Origin: a virus
Reading direction: 5' to 3' (one strand)
Virus record (IMG/VR): IMGVR_UViG_3300043436_002183
Span: 1-31,061 of that record
DNA length: 31,061 bases
Part shown: positions 7,634-29,873 of the stretch, piece by piece
Layout of the letters: every line of letters starts with the position of its first letter
How positions within the stretch are numbered: the stretch's first letter is position 1
Made by a program: the position numbers and the translations under genes
The notes under the pieces: model-generated
Databases searched by the model: none
Seen by the model: the letters and a program-made list of their open reading frames with translations, nothing else
What the model was told of the DNA's origin: nothing

Positions 7634-9839
7634 TAGTTGGTTTAACTGTATTATTTCCATAATCAGGACTTACTGTATATTGAATGTCTGCAATGTCAGT
7701 ATTATAAAACTCTAATAACTTAACTTGTGATTTATTAGTTTTATAATCATAATCATATTCTATTGGCATAAATAATCCCGATATATTATCAATAGTTATA
7801 ACTGACATATAAGGTATCTCGCCTAATATAGAACCCGAAAATACTTTGATAGGATTTGATTGTATTCTTAAATCATCCATAGCTGAAATCCCTAACAATG
7901 GCAGATTTTCAAATTTATCTTTACGAGTCCAATTTGTTGTTAATTCTGTTAAATCTTCTTTGTAAATTGATCCAATTAAAGACGATATTCCATCGCCATT
8001 AAATACTTTTTGATTTTCTTTAGTTATTGAGCTTGGTGGCTCTGAACGAGTAACTGTGTGAAATTCTCCAACTATTCCTGATTTCGCAATTTCATTATTC
8101 AAAAGCTGTACATAAGTGAAATTTGATATTCCTGTTCTTTGAATTAATGGCGGTGTATAAATATATGGTTTAGGGCCATATATTGTTATTGTAACATCGC
8201 AATCATCAATCAAAGGAGGTAAAACTAATTCATAGTTTAAAAACAATTCACTTGTTTTATATTCACCAAAAGCAAAATTTCTTTTATAATTAGTTGTAGT
8301 CCACTCATCATTATTATTTAAATAATAACCATCACTTGTAGAAATTTGAAAGAAAAAAGTTTGTCTAACGTTTTTACTTGACAATTTTAGTCTAAAACTT
8401 AAAATTTCATCTTGTGTAAATGGAACAGGTGTTGAAGTTAAAACTTCATAAATTCCATCATAAACTTGCGCTCCAATTTTTAACCCTGAATTTAATCCAT
8501 CATTAATAATACCTAAAACTGTAAGTCCATCTTCTATAATTGGTAAATCTGGATTTGTTGTCCAATCTTCAAAAACCATATCTTCATCATGATTTAAATT
8601 TGGATTTAAAACTAATCCTTCTAAAAAGCCATATTGATAATTCAATCGATATGCCGATATTGCACCTTTAACTTCTATTTGTTGATTGCCATCACAATGA
8701 TGAGGATAAAAGTTATTTATCTGACTTCCTAAAACAGCATTTAAATTCTTTGTAAAAGTTGTATTAGTATCTTGATTTATAAAAGTAGTGTAACCATTTA
8801 ATTGCAAATCGTTAGGTCTATAAATCCACCAATTAGCATCCTGTTGTGTTATAACTGCTGAAAACAAATTTAGCATCGAAGTTAACACCTCGTTGCAGTC
8901 CATTATAACAATATCGTTTTGGTCTTTTATAAAACGATCTGCATTTACATAAATATCTTTTAAAATATTTGTTCCGGCATAACCAACATAAGCAACTTCT
9001 GTACTGGTGTTAATTGTTAATGATAATCTTGTTCTATCTAAACAACCTTTTATAACATCATATACCGACATTTTACCGGTAAACCTTAAACCATTAGTTT
9101 GAACAAAAGATAAGTCTTTTAAAGCACCTAAAATGTCGTTACTTTCAATGTTAACATACCAAGCATCATTAACGTAACTTTGTTGGCATCCATCCGGTTT
9201 AATATATCCTTCAAATATTATTTGACCTGCTTTTAATAATTCAGTCTTATAGGTAAATTCATCTTCAAGTAAAAACTCATCAAAGGTTAATGTTTGATTT
9301 GCCTCTAAAGATAATTCTAAAGCTGTGCCTCTAATTGGACTTAATATAGTGTCAACACTTGATTTTTTAAGTGTGAATGTTCCATATATTTCAGATGCAG
9401 TACCTTGAAAATTGTTTTTATAAATATTTAGTGTATAATCATCAAAATATAAATAATACTTTAAATTACTTCCTGAAGGCTCTACATCTTGTGTAGTTAT
9501 TGTTATGTTTTCGTTTAAATCTTCACCAATGGTAACAACAGCATCCGCTTGGATTAATACTTCAATAGTGTTATTAACTAAACTATAACTTATTAAATCA
9601 TTTATATAGTTTTCACGTAAATAACTCAATAATATTTGTAATGTTTCGTCTAAAGAAATGCCTATTGCTAATTGATAATCTTCATCAGGTGTATCTCCGT
9701 TTGCAATAAAATCAATTCTAACTCCATTTAGTCCATTGGTGTAATAAAGTACTAAATCATTTACCGTAATATCATAACTAAAGCCAACTACATCAATAAT
9801 CGGCTGTGCGCTAAAATCTATTATTATTTTTTTTGCCAT
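7623..9839 (-). CDS. distal tail / baseplate hub protein (738 aa)
   Basis: Positioned directly after the tape measure gene (one-base overlap), where siphophages encode distal tail and tail-associated proteins. The N-terminal 100 residues (MAKKIIIDFSAQPIID ...) are beta-rich with a segment like those of flavobacterial phage tail proteins; the middle (about 190-330) has FEGYIKPDGCQQ and YDVIKGCLDRTR elements resembling hub proteins. No lysin or peptidase motif is visible. The 3' end runs 11 nt into the convergent MuF-like gene. Function is based on position, size and recall of similar proteins. Confidence 0.78.
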   Translation of the reverse strand: MAKKIIIDFSAQPIIDVVGFSYDITVNDLVLYYTNGLNGVRIDFIANGDTPDEDYQLAIGISLDETLQILLSYLRENYINDLISYSLVNNTIEVLIQADAVVTIGEDLNENITITTQDVEPSGSNLKYYLYFDDYTLNIYKNNFQGTASEIYGTFTLKKSSVDTILSPIRGTALELSLEANQTLTFDEFLLEDEFTYKTELLKAGQIIFEGYIKPDGCQQSYVNDAWYVNIESNDILGALKDLSFVQTNGLRFTGKMSVYDVIKGCLDRTRLSLTINTSTEVAYVGYAGTNILKDIYVNADRFIKDQNDIVIMDCNEVLTSMLNLFSAVITQQDANWWIYRPNDLQLNGYTTFINQDTNTTFTKNLNAVLGSQINNFYPHHCDGNQQIEVKGAISAYRLNYQYGFLEGLVLNPNLNHDEDMVFEDWTTNPDLPIIEDGLTVLGIINDGLNSGLKIGAQVYDGIYEVLTSTPVPFTQDEILSFRLKLSSKNVRQTFFFQISTSDGYYLNNNDEWTTTNYKRNFAFGEYKTSELFLNYELVLPPLIDDCDVTITIYGPKPYIYTPPLIQRTGISNFTYVQLLNNEIAKSGIVGEFHTVTRSEPPSSITKENQKVFNGDGISSLIGSIYKEDLTELTTNWTRKDKFENLPLLGISAMDDLRIQSNPIKVFSGSILGEIPYMSVITIDNISGLFMPIEYDYDYKTNKSQVKLLEFYNTDIADIQYTVSPDYGNNTVKPTIKG

Positions 9840-19766: not shown

Positions 19767-19797
19767 TTTGTTTATTAATTATAAATTACTATATTTG
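19767..19797 (+). promoter_or_regulatory. promoter of kissing-loop RNA A (TTTG-19-TATATTTG)
   Basis: TTTG at 19767-19770, 19-nt spacer, TATATTTG at 19790-19797. RNA A folding starts 4 nt later. The element shares more than the consensus with the promoter at 18632-18662. Confidence 0.88.
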
Positions 19798-19800
19798 CTA

Positions 19801-19890
19801 AGCAGTTGGTCAGAACTGCTAAACACAAACATAACTAATTCCCTCTGACACTACATACTGACCTATGTTTTGAAAGAGGGATTTTTTATT
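19801..19890 (+). ncRNA. kissing-loop leader RNA, copy A
   Basis: P1: AGCAGTT (19801-19807) with AACTGCT (19814-19820), loop GGTCAG. A 20-nt linker follows. P2 terminator arms CCCTCT (19841-19846) and AGAGGG (19875-19880) are followed by ATTTTTTATTT. Inside P2, P3 ACATA/TATGT (19853-19857, 19864-19868) carries the loop CTGACC (19858-19863), the exact complement of the P1 loop, so the two loops can form a 6-bp kissing complex. RNA length to the end of P2 is 80 nt. The start codon of the next gene is at 19900, 20 nt after P2. It has the same plan as copies B, C and D. Confidence 0.85.
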
Positions 19891-19899
19891 TAAACTATT

Positions 19900-20115
19900 A
19901 TGAAAACACTATTTGACAATTTAAAAGAAGAACACAAATTGCAGTTGGAAGTGATGAAAGAAATTTATCCAAACTCCCACGCAAGATTGGTAAAAGCATT
20001 AGAGGATAATTATTTGTATTCTCTGCTGACAATATCAGATGCATATACCTTGATTTTAAACACGAGTAACAAAAGCTTTTCAATAACTAACCTATCAGAC
20101 CTATTTTATGAGTAA
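19900..20115 (+). CDS. hypothetical protein behind RNA A (71 aa)
   Basis: A 71-aa helical protein (MKTLFDNLKEEHKLQLEVMKEIYPNS ...) with no recognised motif. It follows the terminator of RNA A by 20 nt, so its expression needs read-through or another start of transcription. It overlaps the next gene by 8 nt. It may be a cofactor of the neighbouring recombination-like protein, but that is a guess. Confidence 0.78.
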   Translation: MKTLFDNLKEEHKLQLEVMKEIYPNSHARLVKALEDNYLYSLLTISDAYTLILNTSNKSFSITNLSDLFYE

Positions 20116-20593: not shown

Positions 20594-20629
20594 AGCTCGA
20601 AGGTTTCACGAGCTTCTATTGAAACCATA
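20594..20629 (+). ncRNA. kissing-loop element E (no terminator arms)
   Basis: Stem AGCTCG (20594-20599) with CGAGCT (20609-20614) has the loop AAGGTTTCA. Two nt later, TAT/ATA (20617-20619, 20627-20629) encloses TGAAACC (20620-20626), the exact 7-nt complement of GGTTTCA in the first loop. This is the P1-P3 core of the A-D family without the terminator arms P2. The SSB-like gene starts at 20646. Its role may be translational control of that gene. Confidence 0.55.
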
Positions 20630-20645
20630 AATAAATAATAATATT

Positions 20646-21353
20646 ATGAGTAATCGCAAACAGGCGTTCCAAACGCCACAATCCAATCCATCAACAAAGT
20701 TTATCGAGTGGAAATCAAACGACAAGTGTTTTTCTTACTACGACAAAGAGAAACAAATGAACGTTCAAATCCCTTTACCATTTAAGTTTTTAGTTCTTGA
20801 TGAACTTCACACCGTAAAAGGTTGGAATGATGCCACAAGTAGCAGCATTTATTCTAATGAGGTTAAATTCATTTCAAAAGAGGAGATGACTGTTAAACCT
20901 TTCAAAGGTAATGAAATTGCCAAAGGTCTTTACAAAGACATTAAAGAAAAAATTGTTGCAGCAGGTGGCCATTATACAAGAAGCATTTATGTTATGCTTG
21001 AAGATGGATCATTGGCCAATATTCAATTAAAAGGAAGCGCCACACAACAATGGGGTGATTTTACACAAAAGACTCGCTCCAAATTAGCTGATGAGTGGAT
21101 TATTGTAAAAGATACCAAAGATGGCAAAAAAGGGGCTGTTAAGTTTTCGATGCCAAACTTTGTGTTTGAAAAATCTTTAACGGATAAAGAATGTACAATG
21201 GCCGATGAGTGCTTTGACATTTTAGAGGCATACCTTAAAACCTATTTAATTAAAAAAGACATTAACGATATTGAGGTGGTTTTAAATGGAGACATAGCCA
21301 ATGACTTTAATGAATCACAAGAAGCTTCAGAGTTTGATGATTTAGATTTTTAA
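20646..21353 (+). CDS. putative ssDNA-binding protein (235 aa)
   Basis: A 235-aa protein with beta-rich middle (LPFKFLVLDELHTVKGWND, YTRSIYVMLEDGSLANIQLKGSA, WIIVKDTKDGKKGAVKFSMP) and a strongly acidic C-terminal tail ending ASEFDDLDF. An acidic tail with a terminal aromatic residue is the hallmark of replication SSBs such as E. coli SSB and T7 gp2.5, and the position beside recombination and primase genes fits. The RNA-like element E lies directly upstream and a terminator 22 nt downstream, so it may be a single-gene unit. I give SSB as likely, not proven. Confidence 0.72.
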   Translation: MSNRKQAFQTPQSNPSTKFIEWKSNDKCFSYYDKEKQMNVQIPLPFKFLVLDELHTVKGWNDATSSSIYSNEVKFISKEEMTVKPFKGNEIAKGLYKDIKEKIVAAGGHYTRSIYVMLEDGSLANIQLKGSATQQWGDFTQKTRSKLADEWIIVKDTKDGKKGAVKFSMPNFVFEKSLTDKECTMADECFDILEAYLKTYLIKKDINDIEVVLNGDIANDFNESQEASEFDDLDF

Positions 21354-21375: not shown

Positions 21376-21400
21376 AAACCACCTTAATGGTGGTTTTTTT
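21376..21400 (+). terminator. Rho-independent terminator after SSB-like gene
   Basis: AAACCACC (21376-21383) pairs with GGTGGTTT (21389-21396) around TTAAT, followed by more T. It closes the transcription unit 22 nt after the SSB-like stop and isolates the inverted repeat beyond. Confidence 0.9.
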
Positions 21401-21412
21401 ATTTTAAACCTC

Positions 21413-21633
21413 GGTTTAAAATTTTAAACTATTTTCAACCAAAAAAACGCATACAACCCTTATAAACATTAAGTTTTAAACCATTTGGTTTAAAATTTTG
21501 AATTAAAAAAAAATATTTTATAAAATAATTTTATTAAACAACTTTGAATGTTTTAAACCAAATAGTTTAAAAGTCAATGTTTACAAGGGTTTAAGAGATT
21601 TTATTGGTTGAAAATAGTTTAAAATTTTAAACC
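21413..21633. repeat. large imperfect inverted repeat, candidate replication origin
   Basis: Left arm 21413-21495 and right arm 21551-21633 are inverted copies over 83 nt without gaps, 72 matches by my count, the outer 30 nt identical, with a 55-nt A/T-rich centre. The arms are themselves made of TTTAAACC-type palindromes (for example at 21402-21421, 21474-21495, 21617-21632). Mismatches are not G-U pairs, so the structure looks like a DNA dyad and not a folded RNA. The 21354-21722 gap holds no gene. It sits just upstream of a HTH protein and the primase, so an origin or protein-binding region is the leading idea. Confidence 0.85.
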
Positions 21634-21696
21634 TTACTTTAAAAAGTAAATTAAATTTAATTTTAATTTAATTAGTTTATATTAAATTTATTTTTT

Positions 21697-21722: not shown

Positions 21723-21941
21723 ATGACTACAAAAGACAAAATTTTAAAATTAAAAAAAGAAGACAAATCTATTTTGGAAATTTCAAATCTATTAGGTGTA
21801 TCGATTCAAAATGTTTATCAGCATTTAAGAATTGAAAAAGATAAAAAAGAAAAATCAAATAGAGTGGTTAATTTAACTGATTTAGATATTGAAAGATTAT
21901 CTGAAAGAATTTATTTAAAAATTTTAAATCATTTTAAATAA
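21723..21941 (+). CDS. small helix-turn-helix protein (72 aa)
   Basis: The N-terminal half holds a HTH of the homeodomain-like/sigma-70 region 4 type: SILEISNLLGVSIQNVYQHLR (positions 17-37 region), which resembles the C-terminal HTH of the primase (KEVSEQLGVSLQMIYKYIKE). The C-terminal part (LTDLDIERLSERIYLKILNHF) is a helix that could dimerise. It lies next to the 221-bp inverted repeat, so it may bind there as an initiator accessory or autoregulator. Promoter TATATTTG lies just upstream; RNA B follows 19 nt after the stop. Confidence 0.8.
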   Translation: MTTKDKILKLKKEDKSILEISNLLGVSIQNVYQHLRIEKDKKEKSNRVVNLTDLDIERLSERIYLKILNHFK

Positions 21942-21948
21942 AAATTAT

Positions 21949-21956
21949 TACATTTG
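21949..21956 (+). promoter_or_regulatory. -7 box (TACATTTG) of RNA B
   Basis: TACATTTG lies 4 nt before the first stem of RNA B, as in the other copies (4-6 nt). No clear TTTG -33 is present. Confidence 0.72.
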
Positions 21957-21960
21957 CTTC

Positions 21961-22057
21961 TGTAATGTTCTGGTGGGTTCATTACAACTAAAGAATTATT
22001 AAAATGTCCTTTAGGGAGTAGTTGCCACCACAACGAAACCTAAAGGATTTTTATTTT
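21961..22057 (+). ncRNA. kissing-loop leader RNA, copy B
   Basis: P1: TGTAATG (21961-21967) with CATTACA (21980-21986) enclosing TGGTGG (21971-21976). A 21-nt linker follows. P2 CCTTTAGG (22008-22015) pairs with CCTAAAGG (22039-22046), followed by ATTTTTATTTT. P3 GTTG/CAAC (22021-22024, 22031-22034) carries CCACCA (22025-22030), the exact complement of TGGTGG. Both loops are six nt and fully complementary. The RNA is 86 nt to the end of P2. It precedes the primase gene (start 22068) by 21 nt. Confidence 0.88.
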
Positions 22058-26799: not shown

Positions 26800-26807
26800 T
26801 ATATTTG
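26800..26807 (+). promoter_or_regulatory. -7 box (TATATTTG) of RNA C
   Basis: TATATTTG begins 5 nt after the VRR-NUC stop and lies 5 nt before the RNA C stem. No TTTG at -33. Confidence 0.75.
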
Positions 26808-26812
26808 CTGAA

Positions 26813-26895
26813 GTAGAGTCGTCGCTACAATTAAAAATTTATACAATTCCCGCAATGATAAAGACGACGACCTTTTGATTTGCGGGTTTTTATTT
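26813..26895 (+). ncRNA. kissing-loop leader RNA, copy C
   Basis: P1: GTAG (26813-26816) with CTAC (26825-26828), loop AGTCGTCG. A 20-nt linker follows. P2 CCCGCAA (26849-26855) pairs with TTGCGGG (26880-26886), followed by TTTTTATTT. P3 AAAG/CTTT (26860-26863, 26872-26875) carries ACGACGAC (26864-26871); GTCGTCG and CGACGAC pair over 7 bp. Between P2 and P3 the two strands both read TGAT, a symmetrical internal loop with tandem G-A pairs, as in copy D. The RNA is 74 nt to the end of P2. It precedes the 79-aa gene (start 26903). Confidence 0.88.
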
Positions 26896-26902
26896 AAAAA
26901 AT

Positions 26903-27142
26903 ATGAATACATTATCAGTACAGGGATTTAAAATTGACATTAACCACTTTGATACTCAAATATCAAAAAGTGGCAGACCATTTAGATTGAGTGGTGTTGA
27001 AATAGTAAGAACTAAACCAGCGCAATGGGTGAATAAGATGCTATTGCATGGAACTATTTACAGCTTCAGATATTTAGATGAGCAAGATGGCTTCTTTGCT
27101 TTTGAGTTTGATCCGTTTAACAATTTTATTTCAAAAATATGA
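26903..27142 (+). CDS. hypothetical protein behind RNA C (79 aa)
   Basis: A 79-aa protein, predicted beta-rich (SGRPFRLSGVEIVRTKP; LHGTIYSFRYLDEQDGFFAFEFDPF), without known motif. The start codon stands 16 nt after the terminator of RNA C. It overlaps the next gene by 4 nt. It heads a run of five small genes that ends at the terminator near 28200. A role in replication control or host takeover is possible but not supported by a motif. Confidence 0.78.
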   Translation: MNTLSVQGFKIDINHFDTQISKSGRPFRLSGVEIVRTKPAQWVNKMLLHGTIYSFRYLDEQDGFFAFEFDPFNNFISKI

Positions 27143-27393
27143 TTTATACAGTTAGAAATATAGCAGAGTTTTGCGATGTCGATTACGGATTTATAAATAG
27201 AATAATTGACTCCAATGAGTTAAGACCTAAACTTATTTGCGGAAACGCAAACGAGAAAAAAGGTTATAGCTTTTACCAACTTTACATCATTAAAGAACTA
27301 ATTGAACAACTGATCCAAAAGGACATTTATTTAGATTTTGAGAATGAAGAAATTTATACTATTTACGAAAGCAAACTAAATTTTGAATTATGA
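27139..27393 (+). CDS. putative MerR-like DNA-binding protein (84 aa)
   Basis: The N-terminus TVRNIAEFCDVDYGFINRIIDSNELRP has the shape of a MerR/excisionase winged-helix HTH, followed by GYSFYQLYIIKELIEQLI, the usual wing-to-helix transition, and an acidic C-terminal tail. It overlaps its neighbours by 4 nt on both sides. Such small proteins in an early operon usually act as transcription regulators or excisionase-like proteins; no integrase is visible, so regulator is the better guess. Confidence 0.68.
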   Translation: MIYTVRNIAEFCDVDYGFINRIIDSNELRPKLICGNANEKKGYSFYQLYIIKELIEQLIQKDIYLDFENEEIYTIYESKLNFEL

Positions 27394-27743
27394 ATATACA
27401 CGAAAGAATTACCGAAATAAATAGCACTTTAATGCAACTAAATTACAAAGACCAGGAGATATTATCCTTTTGGGATGAGTGTATAAAAATTGCCAAAGAT
27501 AAACAGCAGATGTTTACTGATGAATTTAAGATTTCTATAAACGGCAAACGATTAGCTGACAAATTAAATGAAAGCTTCGGTTTACAATTATTGCCAAAAA
27601 TCAAACGAAACATTAAGAACGATATTAAATTTTTAATGTTGGATCAGTCAGGCAAAGTATATGAGTTTAAAGGAATTGTTTTAGACTTTTTAGATAGCGA
27701 TGTTACTATTGAATTAAATGACTCAACTTTTACCCTTTATTAA
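27390..27743 (+). CDS. hypothetical early protein (117 aa)
   Basis: A 117-aa protein with N-terminal helices (ERITEINSTLMQLNYKDQEILSFWDECIKIAKDKQQ), a central KISINGKRLADKLNESFGLQLLPKIKRN part and a beta-rich C-terminal half. No known family recognised. It overlaps the MerR-like gene by 4 nt and is followed 2 nt later by the HTH gene. Confidence 0.75.
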   Translation: MNIHERITEINSTLMQLNYKDQEILSFWDECIKIAKDKQQMFTDEFKISINGKRLADKLNESFGLQLLPKIKRNIKNDIKFLMLDQSGKVYEFKGIVLDFLDSDVTIELNDSTFTLY

Positions 27744-27745
27744 CT

Positions 27746-27940
27746 ATGAATCAACACAAAATGTATAGATGCATAAGGCTTATGGAATATCTCCAGGAGA
27801 AGCCAAGAAATATGTATACAATAGAAAGGTATTTAAATGTAAGTAATAGAACAGTTTACCGCTATCTAAAACTTTATGAAGCACTTGGATATATTGTAAA
27901 AAAAGACAAATTTAATAAAGTTGAACTACTAAAACAATAA
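27746..27940 (+). CDS. small HTH transcription regulator (64 aa)
   Basis: One DeoR/HTH_11-like domain fills the protein: IRLMEYLQEKPRNMYTIERYL as first helices, then NVSNRTVYRYLKLYEALGYIV as turn and recognition helix (NRTVYRYL) with the wing KKDKFNKVEL. At 64 aa it has no ligand domain. It lies among small genes behind RNA C and is likely a regulator of phage or host promoters. Confidence 0.82.
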   Translation: MNQHKMYRCIRLMEYLQEKPRNMYTIERYLNVSNRTVYRYLKLYEALGYIVKKDKFNKVELLKQ

Positions 27941-27942
27941 CT

Positions 27943-28185
27943 ATGAACTACCTATTATCAAAAGAGCATTTTTTAGCTCACGACCAACTATTAAACGATT
28001 ACAAGAATTTAATTTGTCATTATGCAGATTTTAAACTTTATCGCAAAGGCACAGCACAAAGCCACAAAGCAAAGCAGAACTGCCATAAATATCTAATATC
28101 AATTCTTGTAAATAAGAATATATTGAAAATTGATACTACTGCTGATGAAACTATGTTGGATGAATTGTTTGACAGGATTAAATAA
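27943..28185 (+). CDS. hypothetical early protein (80 aa)
   Basis: An 80-aa protein, helical and basic, with LLNDYKNLICHYADFKLYRKGT and HKYLISILVNKNILKI. It is the last gene of the plus-strand early block. Its TAA leads directly into a strong hairpin. It begins 2 nt after the HTH gene. No motif is recognised. Confidence 0.75.
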   Translation: MNYLLSKEHFLAHDQLLNDYKNLICHYADFKLYRKGTAQSHKAKQNCHKYLISILVNKNILKIDTTADETMLDELFDRIK

Positions 28186-28217
28186 AAAAAACCCCTTCAC
28201 GTAAAACGGAAGGGGTT
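28184..28217 (-). terminator. terminator between convergent early and lysis genes
   Basis: AACCCCTTC (28190-28198) pairs with GAAGGGGTT (28209-28217) around ACGTAAAACG, in which CGT and ACG can also pair. On minus the stem runs into eight or more T, a classic terminator for the spanin message; on plus only a weak T run follows, so the same stem would stop the early message less well. Confidence 0.88.
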
Positions 28218-28245
28218 ATTAACCTAAACCAAACTATTATGAAGC

Positions 28246-28743
28246 TCAAATATAAACTTTATATTTTTTATAAGCAAAATAAATTGGTATTAAAATTAAG
28301 AACCAAAGAAGCCAACAATAAGACTCTTTACGTTCAGTTTGTTTTACTTCTATTATTTTGTTTCTTTTAACCATCACTACACCCTCTTTTTTTGCTTTGT
28401 GTTGGACTTTTACATCTTTATTGATACTTATATTGTTTTTAGTTTTTTTGTGTCTTATTTTAACGTTTTTGTACGTTATTCCATTCACAATCATAGGCAA
28501 TGAATCAGATATCGGACTAATCTCAATTTCATCGGTTGTTGAACTGTCAAGGATTTTTGTATTGTTCGTTACTCTCGTTTCAGTTTCGAGAGTAATTTTT
28601 TCAGTTTTTTGCTCTTGTTCTTTAGTTTCAGACTTGCTTACTTTTCGTGATCCGCAAGAAGTCAAAACTATTGCAGTTATTAAACCTATTACAATAGCTA
28701 TTAGTAATAAGTCGTTTTTGTTGTCGTTTTGGTTTATTGTCAT
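28246..28743 (-). CDS. unimolecular spanin, putative (165 aa)
   Basis: The N-terminus carries a hydrophobic segment ending in a lipobox (LLLIAIVIGLITAIV then LTSC, Cys30), so the mature protein may be anchored by lipid in the outer membrane. The C-terminus has a transmembrane segment (WLLWFLILIPIYFAY, about residues 144-158) with a basic end (KKYKVYI). Charged periplasmic sequence connects the two. One protein with outer-membrane lipid anchor and inner-membrane segment is the definition of a u-spanin, as in phage T1. It lies far from holin and lysozyme in linear order but on the same strand. Its start overlaps the 51-aa gene (ATGA). Confidence 0.85.
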   Translation of the reverse strand: MTINQNDNKNDLLLIAIVIGLITAIVLTSCGSRKVSKSETKEQEQKTEKITLETETRVTNNTKILDSSTTDEIEISPISDSLPMIVNGITYKNVKIRHKKTKNNISINKDVKVQHKAKKEGVVMVKRNKIIEVKQTERKESYCWLLWFLILIPIYFAYKKYKVYI

Positions 28744-28895
28744 TCTTCTTCTTTTAAAAGTTCATTTATTGATTCTTGGGCATACCCACAAAAAGATAAT
28801 AATATTTTAAATTTTTGTATCATATCCCAAATTGTATTATCATCTGGCAATTCCATTGTAATTACTTCTCCATTTGTTTCAACTGTTATTTTCAT
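28740..28895 (-). CDS. 51-aa protein upstream of spanin
   Basis: ATG at 28895-28893, TGA at 28742-28740. The product begins MKITVETNGEVITMELPDD and ends FCGYAQESINELLKEEE, a compact acidic pattern that I recall from small phage and prophage proteins of many Bacteroidota and Firmicutes (strand, strand, helix). The ATGA overlap with the spanin gene points to coupled translation. Function unknown. Confidence 0.78.
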   Translation of the reverse strand: MKITVETNGEVITMELPDDNTIWDMIQKFKILLSFCGYAQESINELLKEEE

Positions 28896-28918
28896 ATCAT
28901 TACTTTTTATATTAATTA

Positions 28919-28939
28919 AAACCCTAATTTTTAGGGTTT
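28919..28939 (-). promoter_or_regulatory. hairpin in leader of 51-aa/spanin genes
   Basis: AAACCCTAA (28919-28927) pairs with TTAGGGTTT (28931-28939) around three nt. On the minus strand it is followed by TTTAATTAAT and then the ATG 23 nt away. It is an attenuator or terminator candidate. Other dyads lie in the 28896-29040 gap: TTATAC/GTATAA (28965-28981) and GTTAGTT/AACTAAC (29018-29040). No TAnnTTTG box is visible in the gap. Confidence 0.5.
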
Positions 28940-29040
28940 ATCTTTAAACGATTAGTAACTTATATTATACATTTTGTATAATTTTTAGTCTTTTTGTATA
29001 AGATATTGTACATTTCAGTTAGTTACATTTTGGAACTAAC

Positions 29041-29268
29041 TTATAAATTAATTTGTATTTTTTGTGTTGGACAACTCATTCGGTGTATATTGTTTTCTTT
29101 ATGGCAGTATTTACAAATACCATTAGGCCAAAACATATCGCAGTTGTCAGCATCTTCTTATCTGTTAAAACTTCCCCAAGTTTGCCACACTCCCGCTGGA
29201 GCTGTAAACCTATGGCAGTATTTACTGCTTGGGCATAAAAAATCGTTGCATTTACTTATATCAGCCAT
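29041..29268 (-). pseudogene. Cys-rich small protein gene split by an in-frame TAA
   Basis: From ATG 29268-29266 the frame reads MADISKCNDFLCPSSKYCHRFTAP..., then TAA at 29160-29158 after 36 codons, then continues open in the same frame for 38 codons (EDADNCDMFWPNG, CKYCHKEN ...) to TAA at 29043-29041. The first half matches a widespread small phage protein with the pattern KCxxxxCPxxxxCxRFTAP, whose continuation normally contains CDMFW or CDYYW, so the stop breaks one gene. It could be a nonsense mutation, a read-through site, or a sequence error. The repeated 14-nt TATGGCAGTATTTA (29100-29113, 29211-29224, 37 codons apart) encodes part of a KYCH in each half. Confidence 0.65.
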
Positions 29269-29309
29269 ATTACACAATTTTATAATTGATTATTCTCATA
29301 TTCTTTAAT

Positions 29310-29777
29310 TCATAGTTTAGACAAAACTAAATCTCTTTTTTTAACTGCGTCAAAAATATTATCAAAAGTACCAAAACTTTGTCTAATTCCATTAATTTTT
29401 ATTCTAACTCTAAATGCTGTTTTATTTTTACTTTTACTAAAATAAATGCAATTTTCTCCAGTAACACTTATTCTGTCTTTTGTAGAATTTATTCTTTTCG
29501 TTGTTATTTGTAAATTTGATAAGTCATTATTTAACGGATTGTTATCTATATGATCCACTATAAAATTACCATCAACACCATAATTTAAAAAATAAATACC
29601 TAATAATCTATGTATTGTCTTTGTTTTTTTTATTGCTCCATTAACCAATTTTATAACAAAATAACCTTTTTTAGAAACAACATTAGTTAAAACCTTCCCA
29701 CTTTTTACATTTTTTACTCTACCTAAATTACTTATTTCGTAATTAGGAAAATCATTTAATTTTTTAAATACTTCCAT
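29310..29777 (-). CDS. HNH homing endonuclease with NUMOD4-type start (155 aa)
   Basis: The N-terminus (FKKLNDFPNYEISNLGRVKNVKSGKVL) is a NUMOD4 DNA-binding motif. The HNH core follows: His56 in IHRLL, then DHIDNN at 75-80 and LQITT. The C-terminal 45 residues (ENCIYFSKSKNKTAFRVRI ... FGTFDN) resemble the AP2-like strand-rich domain that follows HNH in phage endonucleases. Such genes are mobile and nick or cut unoccupied target sites. It is preceded by RNA D with its own promoter and terminator, 7 nt from the ATG, so expression depends on passing that terminator. Confidence 0.92.
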   Translation of the reverse strand: MEVFKKLNDFPNYEISNLGRVKNVKSGKVLTNVVSKKGYFVIKLVNGAIKKTKTIHRLLGIYFLNYGVDGNFIVDHIDNNPLNNDLSNLQITTKRINSTKDRISVTGENCIYFSKSKNKTAFRVRIKINGIRQSFGTFDNIFDAVKKRDLVLSKL

Positions 29778-29783
29778 ATAATT

Positions 29784-29860
29784 AAAAACCCACTTATCAA
29801 AGGTCGCAGTCTTATCAAAGTGGGAGTTTATTAAGTTCTTATAAGTATCTGCGACAATAC
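29784..29860 (-). ncRNA. kissing-loop leader RNA, copy D
   Basis: On the minus strand, P1 GTAT (29860-29857) with ATAC (29848-29845), loop TGTCGCAG. A 20-nt linker follows. P2 CCCACTT (29824-29818) pairs with AAGTGGG (29795-29789), followed by TTTTTAATT. P3 AAG/CTT (29813-29811, 29802-29800) carries ACTGCGAC (29810-29803); GTCGCAG and CTGCGAC pair over 7 bp. TGAT stands on both sides between P2 and P3, as in copy C. RNA to the end of P2 is 72 nt. It lies directly before the HNH gene (ATG 29777). Confidence 0.88.
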
Positions 29861-29865
29861 ATACA

Positions 29866-29873
29866 CAAATATA
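29866..29873 (-). promoter_or_regulatory. -7 box (TATATTTG) of RNA D
   Basis: CAAATATA on plus reads TATATTTG on minus, 5 nt before P1 of RNA D and just after the metallophosphoesterase stop codon at 29879. No TTTG lies 19 nt upstream. Confidence 0.7.

Follow-up and report, generated by a model that had tools for sequence, protein, structure and literature searches.

In a 31,061-base, A+T-rich IMG/VR virus record (the window, that is, the whole stretch of DNA that was analysed) we found four leaders of one layout, here denoted A, B, C and D. Read 5' to 3', the layout is a TAnnTTTG promoter box, about 5 nucleotides (nt), a 5'-terminal hairpin (P1), an A-rich linker and a P2/P3 hairpin ending in GGG-UUUUU, with the AUG about 14 nt further on; the loops of P1 and P3 are complementary and would pair as a kissing helix. 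The existence of this leader family is near certain, and the leader probably decides whether transcription reaches the gene behind it. The account to which we lean, tentatively and a little short of even confidence, is that the leader would be a promoter-proximal conditional terminator or pause site (an attenuator) built on the kissing fold and specific to phages.

A kissing fold shared by many phage leaders

Leaders C and D, the two copies of the TGAT type, are made up as follows.

26800-26807, plus strand: -7 promoter box of leader C, TATATTTG (Bacteroidota sigma-A consensus TAnnTTTG; from sequence, with the consensus and a start site 4-5 nt downstream taken from PMC6847099 and PMC9723704)
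26813-26886, plus strand: leader C, from P1 to the end of P2
26813-26828, plus strand: P1 of C, GTAG-(AGTCGTCG)-CTAC, the expected transcript 5' end, kissing letters at 26818-26824 (sequence, covariation)
26829-26848, plus strand: linker of C, A-rich, unpaired, 20 nt
26849-26886, plus strand: P2 of C, CCCGCAA/TTGCGGG, with the TGAT/TGAT internal loop at 26856-26859 and 26876-26879 (sequence, covariation)
26860-26875, plus strand: P3 of C, kissing letters at 26865-26871
26887-26895, plus strand: U-tract of C, TTTTTATTT, terminator-like, adjoining P2
26903-27142, plus strand: gene behind leader C, 79 amino acids (aa), function unknown, MNTLSVQGF...
29866-29873, minus strand: -7 promoter box of leader D, TATATTTG (sequence)
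29860-29789, minus strand: leader D, from P1 to the end of P2
29845-29860, minus strand: P1 of D, GTAT-(TGTCGCAG)-ATAC
29825-29844, minus strand: linker of D, 20 nt
29789-29824, minus strand: P2 of D, CCCACTT/AAGTGGG, with the TGAT/TGAT loop and P3 with loop ACTGCGAC (sequence, covariation)
29780-29788, minus strand: U-tract of D, TTTTTAATT
29310-29777, minus strand: NUMOD4-HNH homing endonuclease gene behind leader D (PF07463, 1.6e-10; PF13392, 7.6e-10)

As a preliminary description of this DNA had stated, C and D lie at these positions on opposite strands and agree in a P1 of 4 base pairs (bp), loops of 8 nt on both P1 and P3, a linker of 20 nt, a P2 of 7 bp and TGAT on each side. In both, the kissing helix is 7 bp long (GTCGTCG/CGACGAC in C, GTCGCAG/CTGCGAC in D). 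The differences that the description listed between the two are all compensated (at one pair of P1, three of P2 and two of the kiss); P3 is 4 bp long in C and 3 bp in D, a difference absent from that description. Folded as single copies, C and D are only mildly better than shuffled sequences (z about -2; A reaches z -4.4 and B z -3.3), and hence a comparison of relatives was needed.

We therefore aligned 46 distinct sequences of the TGAT type. In this alignment 98.6% of pair cells hold, a percentage inflated by the choice of members that fold, compared with 78.8% in shuffled alignments and at most 46% in slid controls. Double-change cells numbered 173 versus 42 after shuffling and occurred at 15 of the 22 pairs, and the covariation score was 0.497, versus 0.134 in shuffled alignments and no more than 0.07 in slid registers. 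The kissing helix was 100% paired, with three covarying pairs. Covariation, the check suggested in the preliminary description, shows that the fold is kept through matching mutations in dozens of phages. The proposal made there that P1, P2, P3 and the kissing pair are under structural selection is strongly borne out.

A second assay, free of that choice of members, compared the 24 nt after the promoter box with the P3 loop. All 38 distinct matches to TGAT..TGAT....GGGTTTTT with an upstream TAnnTTTG box showed kiss complementarity of at least 7 nt, versus 12% when loops were swapped between loci and 6% when letters were shuffled. Likewise, 17 of 17 leaders at the position of C that were fetched by protein alone keep the kiss, as GTCGTCG/CGACGAC in some and GTCGTAG/CTACGAC in others. 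Across the family the kiss is 6-10 bp long. Avoidance of cross-kissing among the copies of one phage was not significant (12 of 180, with 14.7 expected).

A fixed-pattern search limited to the TGAT boxes and GGGTTTTT found more than 120 stretches in IMG/VR. A descriptor combining the promoter box, P1, a kiss of at least 6 and P2/P3 matched 162 copies at a score of at least 45 in real loci and one in shuffled controls. Dereplication gave 91 distinct versions, from IMG/VR contigs and from cultured Flavobacterium and Polaribacter phages, the few lowest-scoring of which are probably chance. Independent sets of loci fetched via neighbouring proteins hold many further subtypes. One distinct subtype, seen in L172, L177, L183, L197 and others, has the loop ACCGCCAA, the partner TTGGCGGT and a short linker of 9-11 nt, and recurs at one locus in many relatives.

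Among cultured phages, Flavobacterium phage hattifnatt9-1 (MN812207) has leaders near 9357, 13298 and 14340; in this phage the leader precedes the helicase gp034, the HNH endonuclease gp041 and, at a distance of about 45-50 nt, gp044. It is also present in the F. columnare phages FCV-1 and FCL-2 and in Polaribacter phage P12002L; the stretches examined of Cellulophaga phi38:1 and Bacteroides B124-14 held none. In L245 (MN812207), the start annotated for helicase gp034, near 9441, falls inside the leader, and the in-frame ATG at 9477 suits the leader layout better. A host-genome element was considered and rejected: the TGAT pattern gave one true match over 84,980 genomes, on an apparent phage contig in a metagenome-assembled genome (MAG), and a covariance model matched 0 of 296 Flavobacteriales genomes, with one match in the positive-control MAG. 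The bacterial-genome searches were made for the TGAT type and not for the other subtypes; bacterial genomes are almost devoid of TGAT-type copies, and restriction to phages is shown for this type.

The proposal that C and D arose by a recent duplication did not survive the comparison. The two are 69% identical, and closer relatives of each lie elsewhere: C is at least 95% identical to leaders at the same position in other phages, and for D, leaders ahead of endonuclease genes elsewhere reach 100% and 89% identity.

The promoter, the expected 5' end and the terminator-like 3' end

C and D each begin 5 nt after their promoter box, and P1 starts 4-6 nt past the box in 49 of 83 versions, with a mode of 5. 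Transcripts of F. johnsoniae begin 4-5 nt past the -7 element (PMC6847099), and in F. psychrophilum the box lies at -12 to -5 (PMC9723704). Given the F. johnsoniae spacing, the RNA should begin with P1; each leader would then start at, or at most 1-2 nt from, the expected transcription start site and would fill nearly the whole 5' untranslated region.

At the other end, P2 runs into a U-tract. Counted from the last G or C of P2, the positions that follow are T in 81, 92, 95, 84 and 86%, and G precedes them in 71-86%. The T-tail score after P2 has a median of 4.31 overall and 4.28 in protein-fetched loci only, compared with 4.39 for simple hairpin-plus-TTTT terminators and 1.29 for the regions ahead of other start codons. 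As in intrinsic terminators, a GC-rich stem base is followed at once by the U-tract, one subtype apart. The distance from the end of P2 to the ATG was 6-29 nt in 83 versions (median 14). This leaves no space for another promoter after the U-tract, so that expression from the promoter upstream would be possible only via read-through.

The gene would thus have to be expressed past a terminator-like structure tied to the 5' end by the kiss, which is why we favour an attenuator. In the proposed sequence of events, the nascent RNA would fold P1 first and then P3, the loops of the two would kiss before P2 closes, and the folded state would set the share of RNA polymerases that stop at the U-tract rather than continue. 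Several observations weigh against such a mechanism. A generic terminator scan, whose stem-loop model takes loops of 3-8 only, calls neither C nor D; the U-run of one subtype is displaced by a few bases (GGCATTAACTTTTT), so that poor termination is expected there; and P2 often contains no more than 3-4 G-C pairs. Kiss and P2 are able to coexist in 81 of 83 copies, so the two do not form a simple either-or switch. The sources searched yielded no transcript data for these phages; the 5' end and termination itself, as well as the direction of the kiss effect and any trans-acting factor, are what we infer. A taut-span switch, in which linker length would track helix length, was examined and discarded: no correlation was seen, and 81 of 83 linkers are able to span.

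Downstream genes and cassette behaviour

Some 31 of 78 downstream proteins are HNH or GIY-YIG endonucleases; the others are BT4734/PriCT or DUF3987 primase-helicases, helicases, DUF3310 proteins and unknowns. Leaders of the TGAT type stand ahead of endonucleases in 24 of 31 cases. At the position of C, five relatives (L131 and L139-L142) have an empty site, with neither promoter nor leader and with a direct overlap between the VRR-NUC gene and the following (MNTLSVQ) gene, indicating that the promoter-leader unit is gained or lost as a whole; the tree requires that the state changed at least twice. This unit moves as a cassette, frequently accompanied by homing endonuclease genes, and it is possible that C originated as a cassette left behind by an endonuclease. 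Two TGAT-type leaders on the minus strand, in L033 (3889-3962) and L055 (6418-6491), end in T9 with no open reading frame (ORF) directly behind, possibly as remnants after loss of the endonuclease gene.

A shared phage regulator was sought among the proteins of the carriers and dismissed, as no phage protein was common to all the leader-bearing phages compared (ORFs of at least 50 aa, at BLAST level). This fits a mechanism that works through RNA or a host factor. That the leaders are a phage-specific class of RNA switches, in which the kissing 5' hairpin would set read-through of the promoter-proximal terminator without any protein, as a plug-in cassette common to the homing endonuclease and replication genes of flavobacterial phages, we consider doubtful.

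Leaders A and B of the window precede other genes.

19790-19797, plus strand: -7 box of leader A, TATATTTG
19801-19891, plus strand: leader A, with P1 AGCAGTT/AACTGCT, kiss GGTCAG/CTGACC, P2 TCCCTCT/AGAGGGA, P3 ACATA/TATGT and U-tract
19900-20115, plus strand: first gene behind leader A, 71 aa, MKTLFDN..., a small early gene of unknown function
21949-21956, plus strand: -7 box of leader B, TACATTTG
21961-22057, plus strand: leader B, with P1 TGTAATG/CATTACA, P2 TCCTTTAGG/CCTAAAGGA, a GAGTA/GAAA loop and U-tract; the kiss is TGGTGG/CCACCA, and TGGCAG/CTGCCA in the relative L175
22068-24344, plus strand: primase/helicase-like gene (DUF3987, Prim-Pol) behind leader B

A possible further leader lies at 20594-20626, before the gene at 20646. 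It has a hairpin, AGCTCG-AAGGTTTCA-CGAGCT, with a loop, GGTTTCA, that could pair as a pseudoknot with TGAAACC, which follows shortly downstream. The related contig L115 has, at 2293-2325 and in a similar place relative to its leader-A gene, an Rfam DUF805b match above the gathering score. In addition, a cluster of inverted and direct repeats of the TTTAAACC/GGTTTAAA type occupies 21400-21650 beside a small gene resembling helix-turn-helix genes (21723-21941), and is perhaps an operator or origin region.

Alternative readings and known systems

The leader might instead stabilise the 5' end or serve translation, the kiss clamping the 5' nucleotides against 5'-end-dependent decay and leaving an unstructured U/A-rich stretch for the ribosome. 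Known protective stem-loops are 5'-terminal, that of ompA being an example. P1 resembles them in starting at the expected +1/+2 (PMC6847099), and since it is weak by itself (4 bp) the kiss would hold the 5' end; the phylum does not use Shine-Dalgarno pairing, and the AUG lies at a fairly constant distance. This reading, which we think rather unlikely, leaves unexplained the GGG end of P2 and the U-tract of terminator grade behind it, which is absent from the other genes of these phages (1.29 versus 4.3), and the distance from P2 to AUG does range from 6 to 29. Less probable still is a folded nascent leader that binds RNA polymerase, as putRNA does, and makes it resist termination or pausing down the operon, at its own U-tract first. 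Size, place and the two stem-loops are as in HK022 putL (PMC9378689), several leaders occur per phage genome at the starts of different units, and a trans-acting phage protein common to the compared carriers is lacking; however, PMC9378689 mentions no kissing helix in put, put has no 3' U-tract, the leader also stands ahead of single-gene units such as endonucleases, and no contact letters are conserved across subtypes. The promoter and the terminator-like end do delimit an independent unit of about 80 nt, and the ORF-less copies of L033 and L055 would suit a leader that is chiefly a small-RNA gene acting in trans before unrelated genes. We regard this as improbable, because in nearly all copies a start codon, which would otherwise be left with no promoter, follows at a regular 9-20 nt, and because the kissing sequences differ between copies, are always self-complementary and have no apparent common target.

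The preliminary description had also read UGAU/UGAU as a kink-turn-like element recruiting an L7Ae-type or other protein. Its tandem G-A core is indeed recurrent: 47 of 83 versions have GA on each strand, versus 7 expected from letter shuffles, a count in which most copies were found via the TGAT pattern, and the core is also present in 15 of 38 protein-fetched copies. The flanking letters vary (AGAT/TGAA, CGAT/TGAA, TGAT/TGAC, TGAA/GGAT), so that the outer letters do show some of the variation that the description had named as refuting evidence. The protein site itself we consider very improbable. The loop is a symmetric 4x4 that would stack U-U, G-A, A-G and U-U, with nothing to predict a kink; kink-turns are marked by an asymmetric loop with a 3-nt bulge beside the tandem G-A, whereas C and D have the symmetric loop and the alignment contains no bulge; and 36 of the 83 copies lack the G-A core, other subtypes having TT/TT, C/- or TG/ATTT. 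In addition, L7Ae-family (PF01248) proteins were found in 0 of 26 Flavobacterium genomes, with control genomes positive and the phage's own host not identified. Chance structure in A+T-rich DNA, for which the base composition of the window and the modest folding of single copies might speak, is refuted by the descriptor counts, the compensatory changes and the 38 kisses.

The leaders make up a large, well-supported RNA family that has no entry among the 4227 Rfam families searched and belongs to phages of a major environmental phylum in which gene control is poorly known. At gathering score, none of these models matched over a leader, whether in the window or in L111, L115, L206 and L142; this includes the guanidine-II-type kissing-hairpin riboswitches, and the leaders have no invariant unpaired core across subtypes. 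No description of the element was found in open-licence PMC papers. The family is present in cultured phages (Hattifnattvirus; Ficleduovirus FCV-1 and FCL-2; Polaribacter P12002L) and is hence testable at once, as a concrete case in which a promoter-adjacent RNA tertiary contact may choose between termination and expression; it also suggests a modular spread of regulatory leaders together with homing endonucleases. The cis-regulatory Rfam motif DUF805b (RF02914) occurs in the same phage contigs (L115), but as a single 35-nt hairpin elsewhere in the contig, with no match to the leaders.

At lambda pR'-tR', a promoter-proximal terminator is overcome by the phage antiterminator Q. The leaders resemble this arrangement in being short, with a terminator-like structure right after the promoter and a gene that would need read-through; unlike it, no shared antiterminator protein was found, and an RNA tertiary contact would exert the control (for the Q mechanism see PMC6606751). 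Free-standing or intron homing endonuclease genes of the T4 type (I-TevI, segB, Aeh1 mobE; seg43 of phage 25) also have structured RNA just upstream (PMC2988022). Those structures sequester or abut the ribosome binding site and depend on promoter choice, whereas the leaders described here leave the start region free, and the same leader also precedes primases and helicases. By analogy, the setting resembles phage attenuators and put. HK022 putL, which lies directly behind PL, needs no phage protein for its action, and put RNA suppresses distal termination through contact with the beta' zinc-binding domain; putL and putR, like the leaders, are phage leader RNAs of about 70 nt by an early promoter, with two stem-loops and probably co-transcriptional action (PMC9378689). 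In contrast to put, for which no loop-loop helix is described and which has no terminator-like 3' end, the stems of the leaders are joined by a 6-10 bp kissing helix and the 3' stem enters a U-tract just before the start codon, so that, on the tests run, the leaders do not appear to be put elements. The host phylum differs as well.

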